From positions 1 to 55,468 of the forward strand of contig CANOCK010000003.1 of the NCBI GenBank assembly GCA_947564525.1: a DNA stretch of 55,468 nucleotides. The letters are read 5' to 3'. The translations under genes were made by a program, and so were the position numbers. This DNA is from an uncultured bacterium (GTDB taxonomy: Bacteria; Actinomycetota; Coriobacteriia; Coriobacteriales; Eggerthellaceae). A model generated the notes under the pieces. The model worked only from the letters and a program-made list of their open reading frames with translations. It ran no database searches and had not been told where the DNA came from. This document shows positions 6,023-42,634 of the stretch, one piece after another (the stretch's first letter is position 1; the number at the start of each line of letters is the position of its first letter).

Positions 6023-6946
6023 CTAGATGGCCGTCAGCCAATCGCTGTACTCGTCGACCTTGCCGTAGACGATCTCGAAGAAGCGGTCCTGGATGCGCCG
6101 CGTGACCTCACCCGGCTTGCCCACGGCGCGGTTGTCGATGGACCCGATGGGAGTCAGCTCCGCAGCCGAGCCGGTCATGAACACCTCGTCGGCTATGTAC
6201 AGGTCGCTGCGGCTCAGGCTCACCTCGCCCGCCGGGATCTCCAGCTCGTCAGCGATGACCAGCACCGAGTCGCGCGTGATGCCCTCTAGCACGCCGTCGG
6301 AGAGCGGCGGCGTCATCAGCACTCCGTCGCGCACGATGAACAGGTTCTCGCCCGTGCCCTCGCACACCAGGCCCGCCTCGTTCAGCATGATGGCCTCAGC
6401 ATAGCCGTGCTGCCTCGCCTCGATCTTGGCCAGGATGGAGTTCATGTACGACGCCGTGGACTTCATGGCCGGCGGGATGGCGTTGTTGGAGCGCTGGCGC
6501 CAAGACGAGATGCCCACCGACACCCCATTCTCCAGCGCGTCGGGCCCCAGGTAGGCGTCCCACGGCCACACGGCGATGATCACATCCACCGGCGCGCCCG
6601 TGGGGTCGACCCCCATCACGCCGTAGCCGCGGTACGCCAGCGGGCGCACGTAGCACGCCGGCAGGTTGTTCGCGCGGATGACCTCCACCGTGGCGTCGCA
6701 CAGCTCGTCCACGGTGTAGCCGAGCTCCATCTGGGCGATCTTGCAGCTGCGATGCAGGCGCTCCATGTGGTCGCGCAGGCGGAACACGAAGCTGCGGTCG
6801 GAGTCGGGGTCCTTGTAGCAGCGGATGCCCTCGAACACGCCCGAGCCGTAGTGCAGCGAGTGGGAGAGCACGTGCGTGGTCGCCTCGGCCCACGGCACCA
6901 TCTCGCCGTTCTTCCAGATGTACTGCACTTCGGTGATGTCGGCCAT
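6023..6946 (-). CDS. ilvE: Branched-chain amino-acid aminotransferase
   Basis: PLP-dependent fold type IV aminotransferase that interconverts leucine, isoleucine and valine with their 2-oxo acids. Visible signatures are GSGVFEGIRCY (about 34-44), the PLP lysine in MKSTASYMNS (Lys162), EGTGENLF (near 196) and the TGSAAELTPI phosphate-binding region. Length 307 aa is normal. The reading frame stays open far upstream, but GAAGGAG seven bases before the ATG at 6946 and the family N-terminus (MADITEVQYIWKNGE) fix the start. It leads into cimA. A TACAAT hexamer at about 7007-7012 is a possible -10. Confidence 0.95.
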   Translation of the reverse strand: MADITEVQYIWKNGEMVPWAEATTHVLSHSLHYGSGVFEGIRCYKDPDSDRSFVFRLRDHMERLHRSCKIAQMELGYTVDELCDATVEVIRANNLPACYVRPLAYRGYGVMGVDPTGAPVDVIIAVWPWDAYLGPDALENGVSVGISSWRQRSNNAIPPAMKSTASYMNSILAKIEARQHGYAEAIMLNEAGLVCEGTGENLFIVRDGVLMTPPLSDGVLEGITRDSVLVIADELEIPAGEVSLSRSDLYIADEVFMTGSAAELTPIGSIDNRAVGKPGEVTRRIQDRFFEIVYGKVDEYSDWLTAI

Positions 6947-7375
6947 GGCGCGCTCCTTCTCTTGGTTGCGCGGCGCGCGGGGCGCCGCCTTCGCGATGGG
7001 AGCTATTGTACTCCAACCAGCTAAAGCACAGCAGGTCAACCCCGCAGAATTCCACACGGCAGAAACAGGGGAGCCGGCCCGGCGCCGCACCGGGCAGGAC
7101 TCGAGCCGCGAAGAGCGCCCAGGGCAGCGCCACGCGCCTTGCGGGCCGCGACCTTTCGCATGGCGACGACCTTCCCAAGCGCGTCCAGGGTGATGCGGTC
7201 CGCAGCGCACAAGACAACGAAGGGAGGGGGGGGGCAGGAAGTCGCGCCCAACGGCACGCCGACACGCCCGTGTCTCGCAGGGCACGACCCGGCACATCGC
7301 ACAGGGCGGGCTGGCGAGCGGGAGAGCTGATGGGCGGAACGGCGGCCGGGAAGCAAGGGGTCGAGGGCCCAGAAA
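6947..7375. other. Non-coding upstream region of ilvE
   Basis: No gene is supported. It holds a possible minus-strand -10 (TACAAT, 7007-7012) about 60 bases before ilvE and a run of nine G at 7226-7234. I looked for a T-box or attenuator leader and found neither a clear antiterminator pair nor a T-box sequence. Confidence 0.35.
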
Positions 7376-7556
7376 GCCAAGTTTGGCGAGCTTTGACATG
7401 AATCGGATGGCCCAAGGGGGCCGAAAGGCCAAGTTTCGCTCGATTCGACACATCGCAGTCCCTCCCGGCGCGACATCCTGTGTCAAAGCTCGCCAAACTT
7501 GGCCTCTCAGCCTCCCATCCGCGCTCCCCTTATGTCAAAGCGGGCAGAACTCGGCC
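7376..7556. repeat. Four copies of a ~23-bp element, two direct then two inverted
   Basis: Copy 1 (7376-7398) and copy 3 (7481-7503) are perfect 23-base inverted repeats beginning GCCAAGTTTGGCGAGC on plus and ending in TTTGACA. Copy 2 (7428-7450, plus) and copy 4 (7533-7556, minus) are diverged. The shared core reads GGCCaAGTTnnGCnnGcTTtGACA with variable n positions, and copies 2 and 4 are preceded by GGCCGAAAGGCC or similar, a short hairpin. The head-to-head arrangement makes the block one large dyad. There is no coding capacity, and the function is unknown. Confidence 0.75.
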
Positions 7557-8744: not shown

Positions 8745-10553
8745 CTAGATCTCGGTGACGGTCAGGCCCTCGGCGGTGGTCCGCAGCGCCGCCTCGTAAT
8801 CCTGGCGCGACAGCTTGCTGCCCGACATGTTCACCGTAACGGTGGCCGTGGGCCCGTCCACGGAACCGCCCAGGTAGTTGCGCCCATAGTCGCGCTCGGT
8901 GCGGTTCACGAAGGCCGTGGCCGACGCCTCGGAGCTAAAGGTGGCCTGGAACACCGTCGTGGTGCACAGGCCCTGGTCGTCGAACGTCACCGTCTCGAAG
9001 ATGACCGGATGCTCTCCCTCTGGAGTGGTCAGGGTGTAGCGGTACTCCACCTTGCCCGCCAGGCTCGTGCTGCCCTCGCCACCGGCCGACCCGCCAGACG
9101 ATGGCGCGTTGGAGGCCGAGGAGTCGACCGTTGAGCCGGTCGAAGACGAAGACGAGCTGCTCGAGGACGAGGAGGAGGACGAGGAGGACTTCGACGACGA
9201 GGACGAGGTGCTCGACACGGCGCTCGGCGAGGAGCTCCCCTCGCTGCCGTGGTCGAAGGCACCCGTGGATATGGCCACCACGATGCCGATGATGGCTGCC
9301 AGCAGCAAGACCACCACGATGATCAGCACCACCATCAGCCGGCGGAACTTGCTATGGGACCGCGACGCGTCGTCCATCTCGTTCTTCATGGCCGCCACCG
9401 CGCCCGCCGCCTCCAGGGTGGTGGGCGGCGCGGCGTAGGGGTCCTGCCCCCAGGACGACCCCATCGGGTCGAGGGCCGTGGTCATGCCCAGCGGGTCGTA
9501 GCCGTAGCCCGAGGCCGCCGTGCCGCCATCGAAGGGGTAGCCCGACGAGTAGCCGTCCGCCCCGAAGGAGGGGCCGAGCGGGTCAGGCCCATAGGGCCAC
9601 GAGGTCGGCGACGGAGGGGGGGGGCCGGCGAGCATCGACAATCCGAAGGAGGAGCCGCCTGCGATCCCAGCGCCCCCCGCACCCGAAGGAATCGGGGGGA
9701 TGGCCTGGGTAAGGTCCGCCGCGCCGAGCCCAGCGCCCGCCATGGGCTGAACGCCCAGGCCGATCGGGGACGGATTCGCTGCCGGGAAGCCGCCTGCGCC
9801 AAGGGCGCCCGAGTCCAGCGGCATCGAGGAGGGTGCGAAGGGGTCGGGCACCGCCGACGGCGAGCCGAGGGTTGCGCCCAACGGCACCGAAGGCGCGTCC
9901 GGCGTGGGGAGCGACGCGCCTAGCGAGCCCTGGGACGCAGCGATGGCAGCGATGCCCAGGGCACCCGCCCCGGCGCCGTCCAGGGCATCCGAGCCCTGAG
10001 CTCCCCCCTGCCCCTCGGAGAGAGCCGGGGTCGACGGGCTGATGGCCCCCTCTATCACCGGAGCCGAGAGCTCCTCGGGCTCAGGCACGGGGAACAGCGG
10101 CGACTGCACCGCGATGAAGCCGCCGTCGGTGGCAGCAGCGCTCCCCTGGGGGAAGAACGTGACCGGCGCATCCGGGTCCGCGCTCGGCCGCACCGGCGGC
10201 TGGGCTGCGTCGGTTTCGGCGGGCACCACATCCCCATCAGGGCTTACGTGCACCGTCACTTTGAAGCCTGGACCCGAGGAGTCCTCGGGCTGGCCCATGC
10301 CGGCGGCCGCTGCGGCCTTCTTGCGCGCTTGGGACTGGCGGAACGCCCCCATCCGGGGGTTCAGGAAGCTCGGGATGCCCGGCAGCTTCGACAGGCCCTC
10401 AGCGGCCTGCTCCGCCTCGGCCGCCGCCTGCTCGGGCGACCGGTAGGGCAGCTCCTCCCCGGCGATGGAGCTCTCGATCTCCTCCTCGGAGAAGCCAGCC
10501 TGGGAGAGCAGCTTGTCCAGAGACATGCCGCTGCCTTCGCGCTTCTCATACAT
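8745..10553 (-). CDS. Single-pass membrane protein with low-complexity N-terminus, 602 aa
   Basis: I do not recognise a family name. About 390 residues of Pro/Ala/Gly/Ser-rich sequence without Cys (presumably cytoplasmic) lead to one transmembrane helix (LMVVLIIVVVLLLAAIIGIVVAI, about 407-429). A Ser-rich linker (some 30 Ser) follows, then an extracellular domain of about 100 residues beginning KVEYRYTLTTPEGEHPVIFE. The gene ending at 11310 has the same plan and a similar end domain. The paralogue begins MAENETSGGLSLEALLA and aligns with MYEKREGSGMSLDKLLS, which supports the ATG at 10553; an alternative ATG at 10526 has GAAGG seven bases upstream. A nine-base C tract on the coding strand (9616-9624) encodes GPPPP. 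Confidence 0.85.
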   Translation of the reverse strand: MYEKREGSGMSLDKLLSQAGFSEEEIESSIAGEELPYRSPEQAAAEAEQAAEGLSKLPGIPSFLNPRMGAFRQSQARKKAAAAAGMGQPEDSSGPGFKVTVHVSPDGDVVPAETDAAQPPVRPSADPDAPVTFFPQGSAAATDGGFIAVQSPLFPVPEPEELSAPVIEGAISPSTPALSEGQGGAQGSDALDGAGAGALGIAAIAASQGSLGASLPTPDAPSVPLGATLGSPSAVPDPFAPSSMPLDSGALGAGGFPAANPSPIGLGVQPMAGAGLGAADLTQAIPPIPSGAGGAGIAGGSSFGLSMLAGPPPPSPTSWPYGPDPLGPSFGADGYSSGYPFDGGTAASGYGYDPLGMTTALDPMGSSWGQDPYAAPPTTLEAAGAVAAMKNEMDDASRSHSKFRRLMVVLIIVVVLLLAAIIGIVVAISTGAFDHGSEGSSSPSAVSSTSSSSSKSSSSSSSSSSSSSSSSTGSTVDSSASNAPSSGGSAGGEGSTSLAGKVEYRYTLTTPEGEHPVIFETVTFDDQGLCTTTVFQATFSSEASATAFVNRTERDYGRNYLGGSVDGPTATVTVNMSGSKLSRQDYEAALRTTAEGLTVTEI

Positions 10554-36421: not shown

Positions 36422-38215
36422 CTACTTGCGGCCCCAGAGGACGTAGTTGCCGGTGCCGAGGAGGCTGGCGTAGTCGCTCTGGAAGTCCTTCAAGTAGGTC
36501 TCCAGCTTGGTGTCCTTCTCGACCAGGAGGTAGTCGAAGTCGTAGCGCTCGAGGAACTCCTTGAAGTCGCGGTCGGTCCAATCGCCGCGCATCATGTCGA
36601 CGTACTCGTTGTAGTAGTCGGTCTCGGCGCCGGTCATGGCGGAGTTCCACAGCTCGGGCCGCGGGTCCATGAACGCCTTGTAGCCGCGCCATTCCACGTA
36701 GCCGCCCACGTTGAAGGGGTTGAACAGGCGCACCGACGTCGGGTCGTCCTCGTTCTGGTCGATGTAGTCGATCAGCCCCGTGGCCGTCTTGTCGGACTCC
36801 TCCTCGTAGCCTGCCCAGTGGGGGACCGCCTGCCACACCAGCACCACCACGGCCACCGCAACCCCAGCGCACGCCACGGCGGTGGCGCCGAGGGCCACGT
36901 TGCGCCAGCGCTGCCACCGGCGCCCCATGGCCCAGGGGTCAGCCGCAACCGCGGCGGCCTTCTTCCTGCGGAAGAGGGGCGGGCGGCCCCAGAGCTGGCT
37001 GAAGTCCATGGACCAGCCATGCATGACGCTCATGGCCAGCGGCAACGCGAAGAGGGCTATCAACCACACGTTGCGCACGTGGGAGAACGCCATGAGCCCC
37101 ACGCCGAAGGCCAGCAGCGTCAGAGGCGCGTCGATGCGCCCCATTCCGCGCTTGCCCGCCGCGAGCGCCGCCAGCACCAGCATGACCACCGCCGCCATAC
37201 CGCCCATGCCCCCAAGGCCCCAGGGAGTAAGCGGCTGCATCTCCGTAATAGATCCAGAGCTGGCCGCCCCATAGGACTTCGCCACGTAGAGCGCTCCGTC
37301 CAGCCCGTAAGGGTTCGCCAGCAGCGCCAACGCGCACGCCAGCATGCAGACGAGCAGCGGCCAGCGCTTGTAGGCAGCGCCGGCCAGCTGCACCTTCTCG
37401 CACCGGCCGCGCTTGTGCAGCGGCGCGAGCAGGTCGGGCAGCCAGTAGCAGCCGACGATGGCCACGTCCATGGGAGCCATGGCCATCTGGAAGTTGACGT
37501 GCACCGCCGTGAGGGCCACGCACCCGACCAGCCACCCCATGCGCCCCGAGCGCCGGTAGCGCTCGCAGAAGTAGATGAGCCAGGTGAAGGCCAGCATGGT
37601 GTAGAGGTGCGGCCGCATGGACACATAGGTCATCAGCGCCGGGAGCGCCAGGGCGATGGCCGCCAGCAGCCATTCGCCGCCGAAGCGGTCGCCCTTGAGC
37701 AGGCGCCCGAGGCGGTAGAGCGACAGCACCAGCAGCCCTGCCAGCAGCAGCGTCCAGAGCCCAAGGGCCACGAAGCCGCCTAGGCTGTAGAGCCCGTAGG
37801 CGATCACGCAGGGCACCCACTGCTGCACCACGATGCCCAGCCCCTCGTGCAGGGCGAACGGGTTGGTGTAGGGAATGCCGTGCTGCACCACCTCGCGCCC
37901 CGTGGCGAGGATGAACCAGATGTCGTTGTCGAGCAAGTCGGCGGCATGGCAGGCCAGGAAGATGGCGATGACGCCGGCTACCACCGCCATGACCAGGTAG
38001 TTGTTGCGCAGCTGCGGCTTCCACGACCATGCGGCAACTGGCGCGGAGCCCTGGCTCCCATCGGGCGCCGGCGCAGGGGCGCAGGCAGCCTCGATTGGCG
38101 GGACCTGCGGGGCCGAAGGGGCCTGCCCCTCCTGCTGAGGCGCTGTTTCCCCTGTTCGAGCGGCATCATCCTGCACAGGTCCGCCTTCGCAAGGCTGTGG
38201 TTCGCTCTGGCTCAT
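36422..38215 (-). CDS. GT-C-like polytopic membrane protein, paralogue 1, 597 aa
   Basis: A Pro/Ala-rich N-terminal tail of about 65 residues is followed by about ten to twelve transmembrane helices and an outer C-terminal domain of about 130 residues (from GLIDYIDQN to NYVLWGRK). The first outside loop reads LLDNDIWFILATGREVVQHGIPYTNPF; an acidic pair plus Trp and HGxP in this place is typical of GT-C glycosyltransferase-like proteins that use polyprenyl-phosphate sugars. The substrate is unknown. GGAGGAGG before the ATG at 38215 is strong. The next gene upstream (38488-40221) is a clear paralogue along the whole length: LGRLLKGDRFGGEWLL is identical in both and the ends are alike (NPFNVGGYVEWRG against NPVRLGGYLEWRG). 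Confidence 0.85.
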   Translation of the reverse strand: MSQSEPQPCEGGPVQDDAARTGETAPQQEGQAPSAPQVPPIEAACAPAPAPDGSQGSAPVAAWSWKPQLRNNYLVMAVVAGVIAIFLACHAADLLDNDIWFILATGREVVQHGIPYTNPFALHEGLGIVVQQWVPCVIAYGLYSLGGFVALGLWTLLLAGLLVLSLYRLGRLLKGDRFGGEWLLAAIALALPALMTYVSMRPHLYTMLAFTWLIYFCERYRRSGRMGWLVGCVALTAVHVNFQMAMAPMDVAIVGCYWLPDLLAPLHKRGRCEKVQLAGAAYKRWPLLVCMLACALALLANPYGLDGALYVAKSYGAASSGSITEMQPLTPWGLGGMGGMAAVVMLVLAALAAGKRGMGRIDAPLTLLAFGVGLMAFSHVRNVWLIALFALPLAMSVMHGWSMDFSQLWGRPPLFRRKKAAAVAADPWAMGRRWQRWRNVALGATAVACAGVAVAVVVLVWQAVPHWAGYEEESDKTATGLIDYIDQNEDDPTSVRLFNPFNVGGYVEWRGYKAFMDPRPELWNSAMTGAETDYYNEYVDMMRGDWTDRDFKEFLERYDFDYLLVEKDTKLETYLKDFQSDYASLLGTGNYVLWGRK

Positions 38216-38487
38216 CGCGAGCCCTCCTCCGGGACGGGCAAGGGGCCGAAGGCCGTTGCCGATTGAAGCATCGCCCCATTATAAGGCAGGGCGCGATAGG
38301 GGCGGCTTCCTCGGCGCGTCAAGGAAGCCGGATTGGCGCGCCCAAAGATGCGCGCTCGCGTCGAATTGGGCGCGGCACGTCGAATTGGGCGCGGCGCGCT
38401 GCGCGTTCGCGTCCACGGCTGGGCGTTTACGTTGCGCGACGATGCGACGCAGGCGCGCACTCCGGGGGGAGGCGTCTCGGCGTCACC
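38216..38487. promoter_or_regulatory. Spacer between GT-C-like paralogues with TATAAT and a 19-bp tandem copy
   Basis: No gene is supported. On the minus strand TATAAT at about 38283-38278 precedes the downstream paralogue by 60 bases, but lacks a clear -35. CGTCGAATTGGGCGCGGC occurs twice in tandem at 38359-38376 and 38378-38395 and may be a binding site. Confidence 0.45.
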
Positions 38488-40221
38488 TCAGCGCCTCTTC
38501 CAGAGGGTGTAGCTGCCGGTGCCCATGACGCTTTGATAGCCCTCCGTCTGATCCAGATACTGGTCGAGGTAGCTGCCCTGTTCGGTCACCAGGTAGTCGA
38601 AGTCGTTCTCGGCCAGGAAGCGCTCGAAGTCGCGAGCCGACCACCTTCCGTTGCCCATGTCCACGTACTCGCGGTAGTAGTCCCGGCCTGTGCCGTTGAT
38701 CGGCGCGTTCCACACCTCGAGCCGCGAGTCCACGAACACGGGCAGGCCCCGCCACTCGAGGTACCCGCCAAGGCGCACGGGGTTGAACAGCCGCACGTCC
38801 TTGGTGCCGGCGTCCTGCTCGATGTAGTCCACCAGAGGCGAAGGGGAGTAAGCGCCGGTCTTCTCCTTGTCGGCCATGGCAGGCGCTTCCTGGGCGATGA
38901 GCCCTGCGGCAAGGGCCACCGCCGCTGCGCACGCCACCGCGCCGATGGCGCCTGCGGCCTTGCGCGGGATGCGCCAGCCCCGAAGGCGTCCGAAGTCCGC
39001 CGACCAGCCGCTCATGCCGCTCGCGACCAGTCCGTAGGCGAAGGGCACGGCGAGCCACATGTTGCGCACGTGGTCGAAGGCCAGGAACGTGGTGCCCGCC
39101 AGCAGCAGTGCCAGAGGCAGGTCGATGCGGCCTGGGCCCCGGCGGCCCAGCACCAGCGCGGCCAAGAGGATCATCAGGACGACGGAGAAGCCCCAGAGGT
39201 CGAACTCCGCCGGCGCGAAGGGGCGCATCTCCGGCACGGCCCCGTCGTAGTCGGCCGCACCATAGGAGAGGAACAGGTAGAGCGCCCCGCGCAAGCCGTA
39301 GGGGTTCACCATGAGGGCGAGCGCCGTGGCCACCAGGGCGCCCAGGAGCGGCAGGCGCCGGTAGCCTGCCCGCGCCAGGGCCACGTCGGAGAGCAGGCCG
39401 CGGCGATGCAGCGGGCGCAGCAGGTCGGGCACCAAGTAGCAGCCGATGATGACCAGGTCGAACACCGCCAGGGACAGGTGGAAGCCCCCATGGGCCACTG
39501 CGAGGAGCGGCAGCGCGACAAGCCAGCCGACGCGCCCAGTGCGCCGGTACTTCTCGCAGAAGAACACCACCCAGCAGTAAGCGATCATGGAATAGACGCT
39601 CGAGCACATGGTGATGTAGGGGATGAATGCCGGAAAGGCAGCCAGCAGCAGGAGCAACAGCCATTCGCCACCGAAGCGGTCGCCCTTGAGCAGGCGCCCG
39701 AGGCGATAGAGCGAAAGGGCCAGCATCGCCGCCATCAGAATGGACCAGAGCGCCAGCCCTACGAAACCGGTCGCGCTGTAGATGCCGTAGACCAGCACGC
39801 AGAGCGCCCATTGCTGGACGATGATGCCCAAGCCCTCCTGTACGGCAAAGGGGTTCTGGTAGGGGATGCCATGCTCGACGATCTCGCGGCCAGTGGCCAG
39901 CATGTACCAGATATCGAAGTTGAAGCAGTGGCCGAAGACCTGGGGTACGTAGAGGACGAGCGCCCCCAAGAGGACGCCCATGAGCAGGAGGTTGTTGCGC
40001 GGTTCACGGCCCCCAAGCGGCGGCCTCGAAGCGCCAGCGGAAGCGCTCGGGGTATCGGCAACGACGGGAGCAGCGACAGCAGGGCTGCCAGCGGCAGCGA
40101 CGGCAGCACCAGCAGGGCCACCTTCCCCTTCAGGTTGGGCAGTGAACCCCCCCCCGGCCTTGGTCGCTGCCGGCCGTGTCGGGAACGACAAGCCCCTCGG
40201 AGGGGCCGACGAGAATCTCAC
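38488..40221 (-). CDS. GT-C-like polytopic membrane protein, paralogue 2, with frame-critical C9 tract
   Basis: Same plan as paralogue 1: tail, multi-helix region with CFNFDIWYMLATGREIVEHGIPYQNPF in the first outside loop, outer C-terminal domain ending YTLWKRR. The intact frame can only start at a GTG (40221) about 12 bases after AAGGAAG. A better-placed ATG at 40228 (MIREILVGPSEG) reads in another frame and stops after 32 codons because of nine C on plus (40147-40155). With eight, it would run straight into this protein. Hence it may be switched off, switching, or affected by a homopolymer read error. It sits between the DUF6020 gene (stop 40239) and paralogue 1. Confidence 0.78.
   Translation of the reverse strand: MRFSSAPPRGLSFPTRPAATKAGGGFTAQPEGEGGPAGAAVAAAGSPAVAAPVVADTPSASAGASRPPLGGREPRNNLLLMGVLLGALVLYVPQVFGHCFNFDIWYMLATGREIVEHGIPYQNPFAVQEGLGIIVQQWALCVLVYGIYSATGFVGLALWSILMAAMLALSLYRLGRLLKGDRFGGEWLLLLLLAAFPAFIPYITMCSSVYSMIAYCWVVFFCEKYRRTGRVGWLVALPLLAVAHGGFHLSLAVFDLVIIGCYLVPDLLRPLHRRGLLSDVALARAGYRRLPLLGALVATALALMVNPYGLRGALYLFLSYGAADYDGAVPEMRPFAPAEFDLWGFSVVLMILLAALVLGRRGPGRIDLPLALLLAGTTFLAFDHVRNMWLAVPFAYGLVASGMSGWSADFGRLRGWRIPRKAAGAIGAVACAAAVALAAGLIAQEAPAMADKEKTGAYSPSPLVDYIEQDAGTKDVRLFNPVRLGGYLEWRGLPVFVDSRLEVWNAPINGTGRDYYREYVDMGNGRWSARDFERFLAENDFDYLVTEQGSYLDQYLDQTEGYQSVMGTGSYTLWKRR
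40147..40155 (-). repeat. Nine-base homopolymer deciding the frame of the GT-C-like gene
   Basis: Nine C on plus (nine G in the mRNA) lie 24 codons after the ATG at 40228. Changing nine to eight joins that start, which has the best ribosome-binding site, to the 577-aa frame. This is the layout of a slipped-strand phase switch. Confidence 0.55.
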
Positions 40222-40238
40222 GGATCATGGCATCTTCC

Positions 40239-42134
40239 TTACGTGGTGGGATTAGCCTGGTCGGAAACGCTGGGACCACCAAGGGGGCCAAGCCGAGCGG
40301 GCCACCAAGGGCCAGGAAAACATGGCGGCTGCCGGAGCTGACGCACAAGGCATGCGAGCGCCCCCGCGAGCAGAGGGGCCGTGTAGAGCAGTGGCAGACA
40401 GTAGCGCATATCGAACACCGGCCCTATGAGGCAGAACAGGAGCACCATGGCGCCAGGGGCGAACAAGGTCAGGGCTCCCAGCCGCCGGCGCAGCGCCACG
40501 AACAGCAGAATGGCTGGCAGCCAGAGTACATAGACGACTGCCTCGAAGGGCCAACGAAGGACCGGGCTCTCGCAGGCGGCCCCGTAGGCTTCGCCCATCG
40601 CGTCGCGCAACGGCGCCAGCTCCGCCGGGTAGACGACCATGGGCCGACCCAGCTCCTGATCGCCAGAGAAGTATCGAGCTGTATCGTTGAAATACCGATC
40701 GGTGCCGCCGAGGTCGAGATTCAGCGTCGCGCATGGCGCCACATAGCGGCCCGCGACCCCCATGAGGGCACTGAGGTACGTCTCGGGGTCTCGCATGCCG
40801 CACGTGGCCCATGCCTTGAGGTAAGCCAGCAGCTGCTCATCGGTAGCCTCCTGGTTGAACAGCCATTTGGGGTAATCATGGAAGCCGAAGGTGTAGACCT
40901 GGCGAAGGGCTTGATAGTCGACCACCGCATCAATGGCCGCCCGCTCCTCGGGAGTGTAGAGCGACGGATGCCGCTGGGCATAGGCGGCGGTCTGCTGGAG
41001 CAGGATGCCCAGGGCCTCTTGCTTGCCCCCTGGAGCCACGTTGAGCAGAGGGAACACCAGATGCGGCAAAATGACGAGCATGGTGAGCGCACACGCCAGG
41101 ACCTGAGCGAGAAGGGGCTTCCACCAAGCGCGGAAGCACGCCAGCGCCACGAGGGCCGTTGGCACCACCACATACAGGCCCGTCTTCTTGGTCAGGCACA
41201 GCAGCACGCCCAACAGGACGAACGACACGACGACGCGGCGCGACCCGAAGCAGGCGCCTTTGGTGCGCACCAGCTCGAACAGCAGGACGAAGTAGGGCAG
41301 GTAGACAAGGCTGAACAGGCTGTCCTTGCCCATGTCGAAGGCAGAGGCCGGCACGAAGGGCGCCAAGCAGAAGAACGCGTAGCCTACCAGGGCGATGCCG
41401 GCCGGACAACCACGATGGCGCAGGTAGGCGAGGCTGGCCGTGAGCGCCCCGGCGGTGGCGACGGACTGCAGCAGCACATAGGCGAAGACGCCCGCGTTCC
41501 AACTGCCAGTGAGGCTGTCGGAGGCAAAACCGAAGGCGCCGAAGAGCAAGGTGTCGAAAAGGGGATGGTGGTCGAGGAAGTAGGCGTCGATGGGCGCATC
41601 GTCGAAGAACCCCGTCAAGATGACGGAAAGCGGATGGGCCTCGGGGTAGCACTGGTAGATCTGGTAGTAGAGGTCGAAGTCGGTAACGCCAGGGAAGCTG
41701 GCCACGAGCCAAGGGGACCAGAGGAGGAGCATCACCGCGGAAGATGCCGCGATGCCCTTGGCGGACCATCGTGGCGCGAGCCGAGCCGCCACCCAGCCCC
41801 CCTTCTCCCATGCGGAACGGCAGGCTGGCGCCACGTCGGCCTCTCTTGGCGCCCGCGCCCCGGCAAGCCGTCCGTACGCATGGTCGACGCCTATCGCCAC
41901 CAGGGCGAAGACGATAGCGCCCAGCAACGTGAGGGCGGCCAGCTGGGCTGGCGGGTCGGTGGGGTAGCCTTCGCTGGACACGTAAGCGTACCCCACGACC
42001 CCCACCAGGGCCACCCCGATGGACAGGAGGGCAAGCGCCACCAAGTCCCTTGGGGCGTAAGGTGCACGGGAGCCACCCCCGCGGCCCGCAACAGCCGCAG
42101 GCCAGAGCCCCTGCTTCGGATTATCGCCGATCAT
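40239..42134 (-). CDS. DUF6020 family polytopic membrane protein, 631 aa
   Basis: About a dozen transmembrane helices. The first large outside loop reads SFPGVTDFDLYYQIYQCYPEAHPLSVILTGFFDD (about 131-164), followed by FLDHHPLFDTLLFG, the Asp/His-rich loop typical of GT-C-like DUF6020 proteins that are thought to handle polyprenyl-linked sugars. The mid-chain has LTKKTGLYVVVPTALVAL and the end PVFDMRYCLPLLYTAPLL. GAGGAGGGG before the ATG at 42134 decides the start over the longer open frame. It lies 11 bases after YbaK and ends 10 bases before the ATG of the next gene, so it is part of a run with the two GT-C-like paralogues. Confidence 0.87.
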   Translation of the reverse strand: MIGDNPKQGLWPAAVAGRGGGSRAPYAPRDLVALALLSIGVALVGVVGYAYVSSEGYPTDPPAQLAALTLLGAIVFALVAIGVDHAYGRLAGARAPREADVAPACRSAWEKGGWVAARLAPRWSAKGIAASSAVMLLLWSPWLVASFPGVTDFDLYYQIYQCYPEAHPLSVILTGFFDDAPIDAYFLDHHPLFDTLLFGAFGFASDSLTGSWNAGVFAYVLLQSVATAGALTASLAYLRHRGCPAGIALVGYAFFCLAPFVPASAFDMGKDSLFSLVYLPYFVLLFELVRTKGACFGSRRVVVSFVLLGVLLCLTKKTGLYVVVPTALVALACFRAWWKPLLAQVLACALTMLVILPHLVFPLLNVAPGGKQEALGILLQQTAAYAQRHPSLYTPEERAAIDAVVDYQALRQVYTFGFHDYPKWLFNQEATDEQLLAYLKAWATCGMRDPETYLSALMGVAGRYVAPCATLNLDLGGTDRYFNDTARYFSGDQELGRPMVVYPAELAPLRDAMGEAYGAACESPVLRWPFEAVVYVLWLPAILLFVALRRRLGALTLFAPGAMVLLFCLIGPVFDMRYCLPLLYTAPLLAGALACLVRQLRQPPCFPGPWWPARLGPLGGPSVSDQANPTT

Positions 42135-42145
42135 AGCGCCCCTCC

Positions 42146-42634
42146 TCACGCTGTCAGGTCGGCCTGGCCGAGGGGGATCAGGGCGGCCAGGTCGCTTGGG
42201 GCGAGGGTGACGTGGCAGCCGATGCGACCTCCGGAGAACGTGATGCGGTCGAACAGCTGGGCCGTCTCGTCGATGACCGTGCGGAGCTGCTTGCGCATGC
42301 CGATGGGCGAGCAGCCGCCGTGGACGTAGCCGGTCAGGGGCAGCAGCTCGCGGCTGGGAATCATGGCGATGGCCTTCTCCCCCACCGCCGCGGCGGCCTT
42401 CTTCAGGTCCAGCTCCTCGGCCACGGGCACCATGAACACGTAGTGCTCCCCTGACCTTCCCTGGGTGACCAGGGTCTTGAACACGCCCTCGGGCGCCAGG
42501 CCGAGCCGCTGGGCCGCCTGCACCCCCGAGAGCGCCTCGTCCACCTCCAGGAAGTGGCACTGGTGAGGGATGCCGGCGGCGTCCAGCTCGCGCAAGGCGT
42601 TGGTCTTGGCGGGCTCTTTCGGTTTCCTACTCAC
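42146..42634 (-). CDS. ybaK: YbaK/EbsC-type Cys-tRNA(Pro)/aminoacyl-tRNA deacylase
   Basis: 162-aa editing-domain protein that hydrolyses Cys-tRNA(Pro) mischarged by prolyl-tRNA synthetase. Conserved signs are TNALRELDAAGIPHQCHFLE at the start, GVFKTLVTQ with the key Lys (about 51-59), and LLPLTGYVHGGCSPIGMRKQL (about 97-117), the GGxSP-like loop. The length fits. It overlaps the flavodoxin-like gene upstream by eight bases, so it is translationally coupled to it. Confidence 0.95.
   Translation of the reverse strand: MSRKPKEPAKTNALRELDAAGIPHQCHFLEVDEALSGVQAAQRLGLAPEGVFKTLVTQGRSGEHYVFMVPVAEELDLKKAAAAVGEKAIAMIPSRELLPLTGYVHGGCSPIGMRKQLRTVIDETAQLFDRITFSGGRIGCHVTLAPSDLAALIPLGQADLTA

Follow-up and report, generated by a model that had tools for sequence, protein, structure and literature searches.

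A G9 tract in the 5' coding region of a GT-C-like membrane-protein gene from an uncultured Eggerthellaceae bacterium: a probable slipped-strand phase-variable glycosyltransferase gene in an OFF length

Introduction

In Bifidobacterium breve UCC2003, the pilus loci bbr_0113 and bbr_1889 are switched by replication slippage in a G-tract, with the signal peptide encoded in a short upstream ORF, followed by the tract and a long body ORF; pili are formed when the frames are joined, and tract lengths vary in vivo (PMC9187656). In Gardnerella, tracts of at least 8 vary between colonies (PMC11287997). In Propionibacterium acnes, variation of long G/C tracts follows clades and seems slow, not an active switching (PMC4746626), a caution against equating a long tract with rapid switching. 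For Campylobacter, intragenic poly-G tracts across the genome, together termed a phasome, are described (PMC6321876). Eggerthella lenta varies its capsule through megabase inversions, slipped-strand mispairing being named in that paper only as a general alternative (PMC13174815).

The locus considered here lies in a window of 55,468 nucleotides, the whole stretch of DNA that was analysed, from an uncultured member of the Eggerthellaceae. It shares with B. breve the phylum, a start in a short ORF, an intragenic G-tract and a body without good start signals, but the body encodes a GT-C membrane enzyme without signal peptide instead of a sortase-anchored pilin. In B. breve, slippage, expression and modulation in vivo were all determined by experiment; the present locus was read from sequence. 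The B. breve layout is matched more closely by eight secreted-protein loci of the same host than by the GT-C gene. Gardnerella and P. acnes are likewise Actinobacteria with many G/C tracts of at least 8, often at surface-protein genes; lengths there were compared between colonies or strains, whereas here one assembly was read. The Campylobacter phasome, which includes surface-glycan genes, belongs to an unrelated phylum and concerns unrelated genes, in AT-rich DNA where tracts stand out more easily. E. lenta is of the same family and shows reversible variation of surface-glycan genes, with DNA inversion as the mechanism.

The gene is very probably a slipped-strand phase-variable glycosyltransferase gene, found here in an OFF length. 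Evidence beyond the layout itself comprises a genome-wide excess of long tracts, the eight secreted-protein genes, a sister species, the lack of MutL matches over the cut-off and the GT-C fold of the product. The slipped-strand mechanism itself is already known. A search of the open-access literature, including that on Eggerthella, Coriobacteriia, Adlercreutzia and Gordonibacter, found no earlier report of slipped-strand variation in Eggerthellaceae, in which it seems undescribed.

Organization of the locus

The features of the locus, all on the minus strand, are as follows.

40239-42560, minus strand: upstream ORF for a DUF6020 (PF19484) membrane protein, extending as far as the ribosome-binding site (Pfam E 5e-47)
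40234-40240, minus strand: AAGGAAG, the ribosome-binding site, which shares bases with the TAA that closes the upstream gene
40226-40228, minus strand: ATG, proposed as the genuine start of translation, 5 nt downstream of AAGGAAG; the codon score of its leader is +3.9
40219-40221, minus strand: GTG, the sole body-frame start upstream of the tract at G9, 12 nt from AAGGAAG
40147-40155, minus strand: G9 homopolymer tract (C9 on the plus strand), the proposed slippage switch, read from the sequence and among the 12 genome tracts of at least 9
40130-40228, minus strand: leader ORF of 32 codons plus stop, running from the ATG at G9, read from the sequence
38488-40221, minus strand: 577-aa ORF with GTG start, from the ORF list; the body from the tract on is predicted to be a multi-pass membrane protein (GT-C fold model)
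36422-38215, minus strand: tandem paralogue of 597 aa, 48% identical, without the tract and with an ordinary ATG start (ORF and alignment)

Reading along the minus strand, the upstream gene closes with ACG and the stop TAA (40241-40239) and is followed by AAGGAAG, the spacer ATGCC, the ATG, 24 codons, the nine G and a stop. The frame opened by the ATG passes through its 24 codons into the tract and ends soon after, giving 32 residues in all. The frame of the 577-aa ORF is also open through the tract, out of phase with the ATG at 40228. Because the tract lies in the 5' coding region, a one-base change of its length joins or separates start and body. The true start of the upstream DUF6020 ORF is probably internal, since another ORF (42146-42634) overlaps its 5' part.

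An earlier, sequence-only reading of this DNA had described the ATG with its AAGGAAG, the 24 codons, the nine G and the early stop, all of which are present, and had placed the GTG 12 bases after the ribosome-binding site, which agrees with the measured spacing of 12 nt; that of the ATG is 5 nt. Its further statement that the body frame can use only a GTG is very nearly right, the next body-frame ATG after the GTG lying at about residue 80, within the first predicted membrane helix.

Run-length statistics

G/C runs in the window fall off steeply with length, from 347 of 4 to 85 of 5 and 15 of 6, with one of 7, zero of 8 and three of 9. Across the host genome assembly (1.93 Mb, 175 contigs, 85.8% complete), 14 runs are of exactly 7, 12 of exactly 8 and 12 of at least 9, the last group comprising six of 9, three of 10, two of 11 and one of 12. 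Background counts in this DNA drop about 4-5 fold with each additional base of run length. A geometric tail with a ratio of 0.25, extended from the 14 runs of 7, gives 1.2 expected runs of at least 9 vs 12 seen, corresponding to a Poisson P of about 5e-9 (5e-7 at a ratio of 0.30, 2e-11 at 0.20). Runs of at least 9 thus lie far above the geometric expectation; long tracts are retained or selected in this genome, and the G9 at the locus is a real, non-chance feature. Three of the 12 genome runs of at least 9 fall in the 55-kb window, with P about 0.004, uncorrected for the choice of window.

These counts contradict the earlier view that runs of nine are not rare by chance in such DNA, given 12 seen against about 1 expected genome-wide, and they overturn the claim that position, not length, is the argument, as the flat run-length tail makes length an argument too. 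For GC-rich genomes, it is this flat tail of the spectrum that constitutes the test, not one long run.

Several minor observations concern the other runs of the window. A second G9 tract (7226-7234) could be a promoter-region tract: the ORF concerned (6023-7486, minus strand) is branched-chain aminotransferase-like, and its likely start is found about 280 nt downstream of the tract. The third run of nine (9616-9624) encodes in-frame prolines (GPPPPSP) in a low-complexity part of a 602-aa ORF (8745-10553, minus strand), where slippage would truncate the product. An intergenic repeat with a period of about 52 bp, (A)TGTCAAAGCTCGCNAAACTTGGCTTT, is found on several contigs, with copies at 7373-7436 of the window, L051:8777-8962, L052:29-221 and L048:14882-14945; some copies are near G/C tracts, and a C12 run lies between two copies at L052:167-178. 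A 26-bp match on contig C4 was taken as a chance match in GC-rich sequence.

Tracts in secreted-protein genes

All 24 genome tracts of at least 8 were placed in their gene context. One anatomy is shared by 8 of the 24: an AAGGAAG-type ribosome-binding site precedes an ATG and a signal peptide, recognized by eye, which the G-tract and a body ORF follow. The tract in these secreted-protein genes is G8, G10 or G11 and is placed precisely at the junction of the signal peptide. Only one gene has its body in frame with the signal peptide; in the remaining seven the two are out of frame.

L046:1205-7102: tract-bearing secreted-protein gene, out of frame
L048:4814-8191: tract-bearing secreted-protein gene, out of frame
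L049:3-1145: tract-bearing secreted-protein gene, in frame
L057:6257-9673: tract-bearing secreted-protein gene, out of frame
L057:9938-13915: tract-bearing secreted-protein gene, out of frame
L059:3814-6147: tract-bearing secreted-protein gene, out of frame
L060:1-2805: tract-bearing secreted-protein gene, out of frame
L061:4724-6475: tract-bearing secreted-protein gene, out of frame

The two L057 copies have identical leaders and therefore count as one event. Body ORFs reach 1966 aa, most N-termini are related (xGG..SPALA..), and the bodies carry Listeria-Bacteroides repeats (PF09479), BspA-type LRR (weak scores) or DUF6273. The other genome tracts of at least 8 lie between genes, inside genes or in an ambiguous context. 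Tracts at the same place in each of these related genes, yet at different phases, are hard to explain except by slippage, and the eight tract-bearing genes look like a phase-variable surface-protein family.

Relatives and mismatch repair

Marker matches assign the host to the Eggerthellaceae, with Adlercreutzia as its nearest named relatives. A sister species carries 28 tracts of at least 8; it lacks the tract-bearing GT-C gene and also has signal-peptide/tract/body genes out of frame (L075, L080), together with a membrane-protein gene (L101). Among 23 genomes of the family, 433 runs of at least 9 were counted vs 418 of exactly 7. Named genomes contain 46 runs of at least 9 in both Gordonibacter pamelaeae and Gordonibacter sp. 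Marseille-P2775, 36 in Adlercreutzia caecimuris B7, 9 in A. hattorii and 5 in Berryella, some of these tracts being inside genes.

Two side observations were made in these genomes. Runs of at least 9 are very numerous in G045 (306), G005 (109), G004 (73), G011 (69) and G048 (65), and they outnumber runs of exactly 7 in G004, G011, G045 and G048. In L195 (Gordonibacter pamelaeae), L196 (Adlercreutzia caecimuris) and L203 (Berryella), tracts of 9-10 G stand between the two halves of what appear to be single genes, one for an acyltransferase, one for a prenyltransferase-like protein and one a further long ORF, the family names being assigned by eye.

Across 37 genomes of the order, no match to the MutL model exceeded its curated cut-off, which was passed in 11 of 14 control genomes; canonical mismatch repair thus seems absent in these genomes. 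The best sub-threshold matches are mostly frames of about 360-400 aa that cover about 80-110 positions near the profile N-terminus, as expected of GHKL-type ATPases such as histidine kinases. Without MutL-type mismatch repair slippage should be frequent, as is established in other bacteria. It is somewhat more likely than not that the Eggerthellaceae possess a large poly-G phasome, favoured by the lack of MutL-type repair, that combinatorially switches a family of secreted repeat proteins and glycan-synthesis enzymes, the present GT-C protein among them, most being OFF at a given moment.

Possible assembly error

An assembly or sequencing error, with a true tract of another fixed length and a gene constitutively in frame, is an unlikely account of the locus. 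It gains some weight from the fragmented assembly, from the error-prone nature of homopolymers and from the fact that a one-base difference puts leader and body in phase. Error would not, however, produce a genome-wide excess of tracts of at least 8 over those of 7, nor would it give each of eight related genes a tract at its signal-peptide junction, and the same excess is found in complete or near-complete genomes of relatives. Even with the consensus off by one base, only the ON/OFF call would change, and the tract would stay slippage-prone.

Start codon usage

The gap between AAGGAAG and ATG, 5 nt at the locus, is 5-8 nt in the eight secreted-protein genes. The window contains 5 instances of AAGGA(A/G)G followed after 4-9 nt by ATG, each of them on the minus strand, and three of the four other sites open ORFs of 97, 187 and 301 aa. 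Codon statistics were trained on 101 ORFs of the same genome. The 24-codon leader of the ATG scores +3.9 and the GTG frame about -8.5 with the stop penalty removed, against a coding mean of 9.1 and off-frame means of about -20 to -22. Codon scores modestly favour the ATG over the GTG; this statistic alone is not decisive, as the linker that follows the tract, rich in Ala and Gly, gets a poor score in its own frame.

A constitutive gene starting at the GTG at 40221, with an incidental ATG and a tract that merely codes for glycine, would be compatible with the frame being open through the tract as assembled, with the similar low-complexity N-terminus of the paralogue and with a 12-nt spacing from AAGGAAG that is poor, yet not impossible. 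This account is distinctly improbable, as the ATG has AAGGAAG at a distance matching that in the secreted-protein genes, codon scores prefer its frame, nine G far exceed the background run length, and for coding glycine alone three mixed glycine codons would do equally. Homopolymers are generally known to be able to induce slippage of polymerases, and the B. breve authors cite such work, but transcriptional or ribosomal slippage joining the frames from fixed DNA, with a steady low level of full-length protein, leaves the different lengths and phases of related loci (G8, G10, G11) unexplained and is very improbable as the sole mechanism, though it could operate alongside slippage in replication.

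Proposed switch

As a slipped-strand phase-variable gene, the locus would operate as follows. Ribosomes would initiate at the ATG at 40228, after AAGGAAG and beside the stop of the preceding gene, and translate a short cytoplasmic leader, followed by the G-tract as glycines in a disordered linker. The GT-C membrane glycosyltransferase would be made only at tract lengths that leave the body in phase with the leader. At G9, translation would end after 32 residues, leaving the enzyme absent or scarce, and since the ATG frame stops there, the gene would be OFF or nearly so. Replication slippage would reversibly restore or abolish the frame, generating a mixed population, and we infer that tract length varies in cells and that expression follows. 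The layout described in the sequence-only reading is confirmed by the tract and the frames, and slipped-strand phase variation, its best interpretation, is strengthened by the genome-wide excess and the parallel genes; the reading's term 'surface-glycan gene' has the fold as its basis.

The broader phasome is a more interesting result than the single gene. If it is true, a family of common gut actinobacteria diversifies its surface by replication slippage, like Campylobacter or Neisseria, and reference genomes and MAGs would misreport such genes as broken or with wrong starts. The resulting within-strain heterogeneity of surface glycans or proteins could have effects on sensitivity to phages, on adhesion and on recognition by the immune system; it should be visible in existing deep metagenomes.

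The encoded protein

The 577-aa protein has zero Pfam or NCBIfam matches, one homologue matching DUF6541 weakly (E 0.012). A scan of the genome contigs with the protein as query found no relatives; 11-12 relatives are present in the order, 25-48% identical, the tandem paralogue included. The AlphaFold model (pLDDT 77, pTM 0.78) shows low confidence for residues 1-76, which are probably disordered. Foldseek matches of the model are GT-C enzymes, with E to 8e-8, the structure matches including oligosaccharyltransferase STT3, DPY19, AglB, PglB, ArnT, AftA and Emb. In structural alignment, where Z reaches 17.1 over 421 residues, the matches listed are either GT-C enzymes or transamidase subunits that are GT-C-like. 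The predicted GT-C fold spans residues 72-577, with Z 12-17 and about 400-440 residues aligned in most full-length matches.

The description of the protein as GT-C-like is borne out by Foldseek and by structural alignments of the model, which return GT-C glycosyltransferases throughout. What it has in common with the GT-C enzymes (STT3/PglB/AglB, DPY19, ArnT, AftA, Emb) is the fold, at 9-15% identity in those structural alignments; as no curated family model matches, a GT-C fold is claimed and not membership of a named GT-C family. D103, located after the first helix in the first loop, is invariant in the aligned 11-12 relatives. From the fold, the product would modify a surface glycan or glycoprotein. 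Since the body stays open for 555 codons and retains the invariant residues, the reading as a decayed pseudogene was discarded.

In the model, the glycines encoded by the tract belong to the disordered linker, a part of the protein that should tolerate changes of length. The tract was sought in the homologues with a readable 5' end and in the tandem paralogue and found in none, so there is no conservation of the switch among them. A terminator-like site was looked for between the gene and its paralogue (38100-38600) and none was found; polarity on the downstream paralogue is possible. The N-terminus of the paralogue is likewise low-complexity, and the tandem pair may consist of one constant and one variable enzyme.
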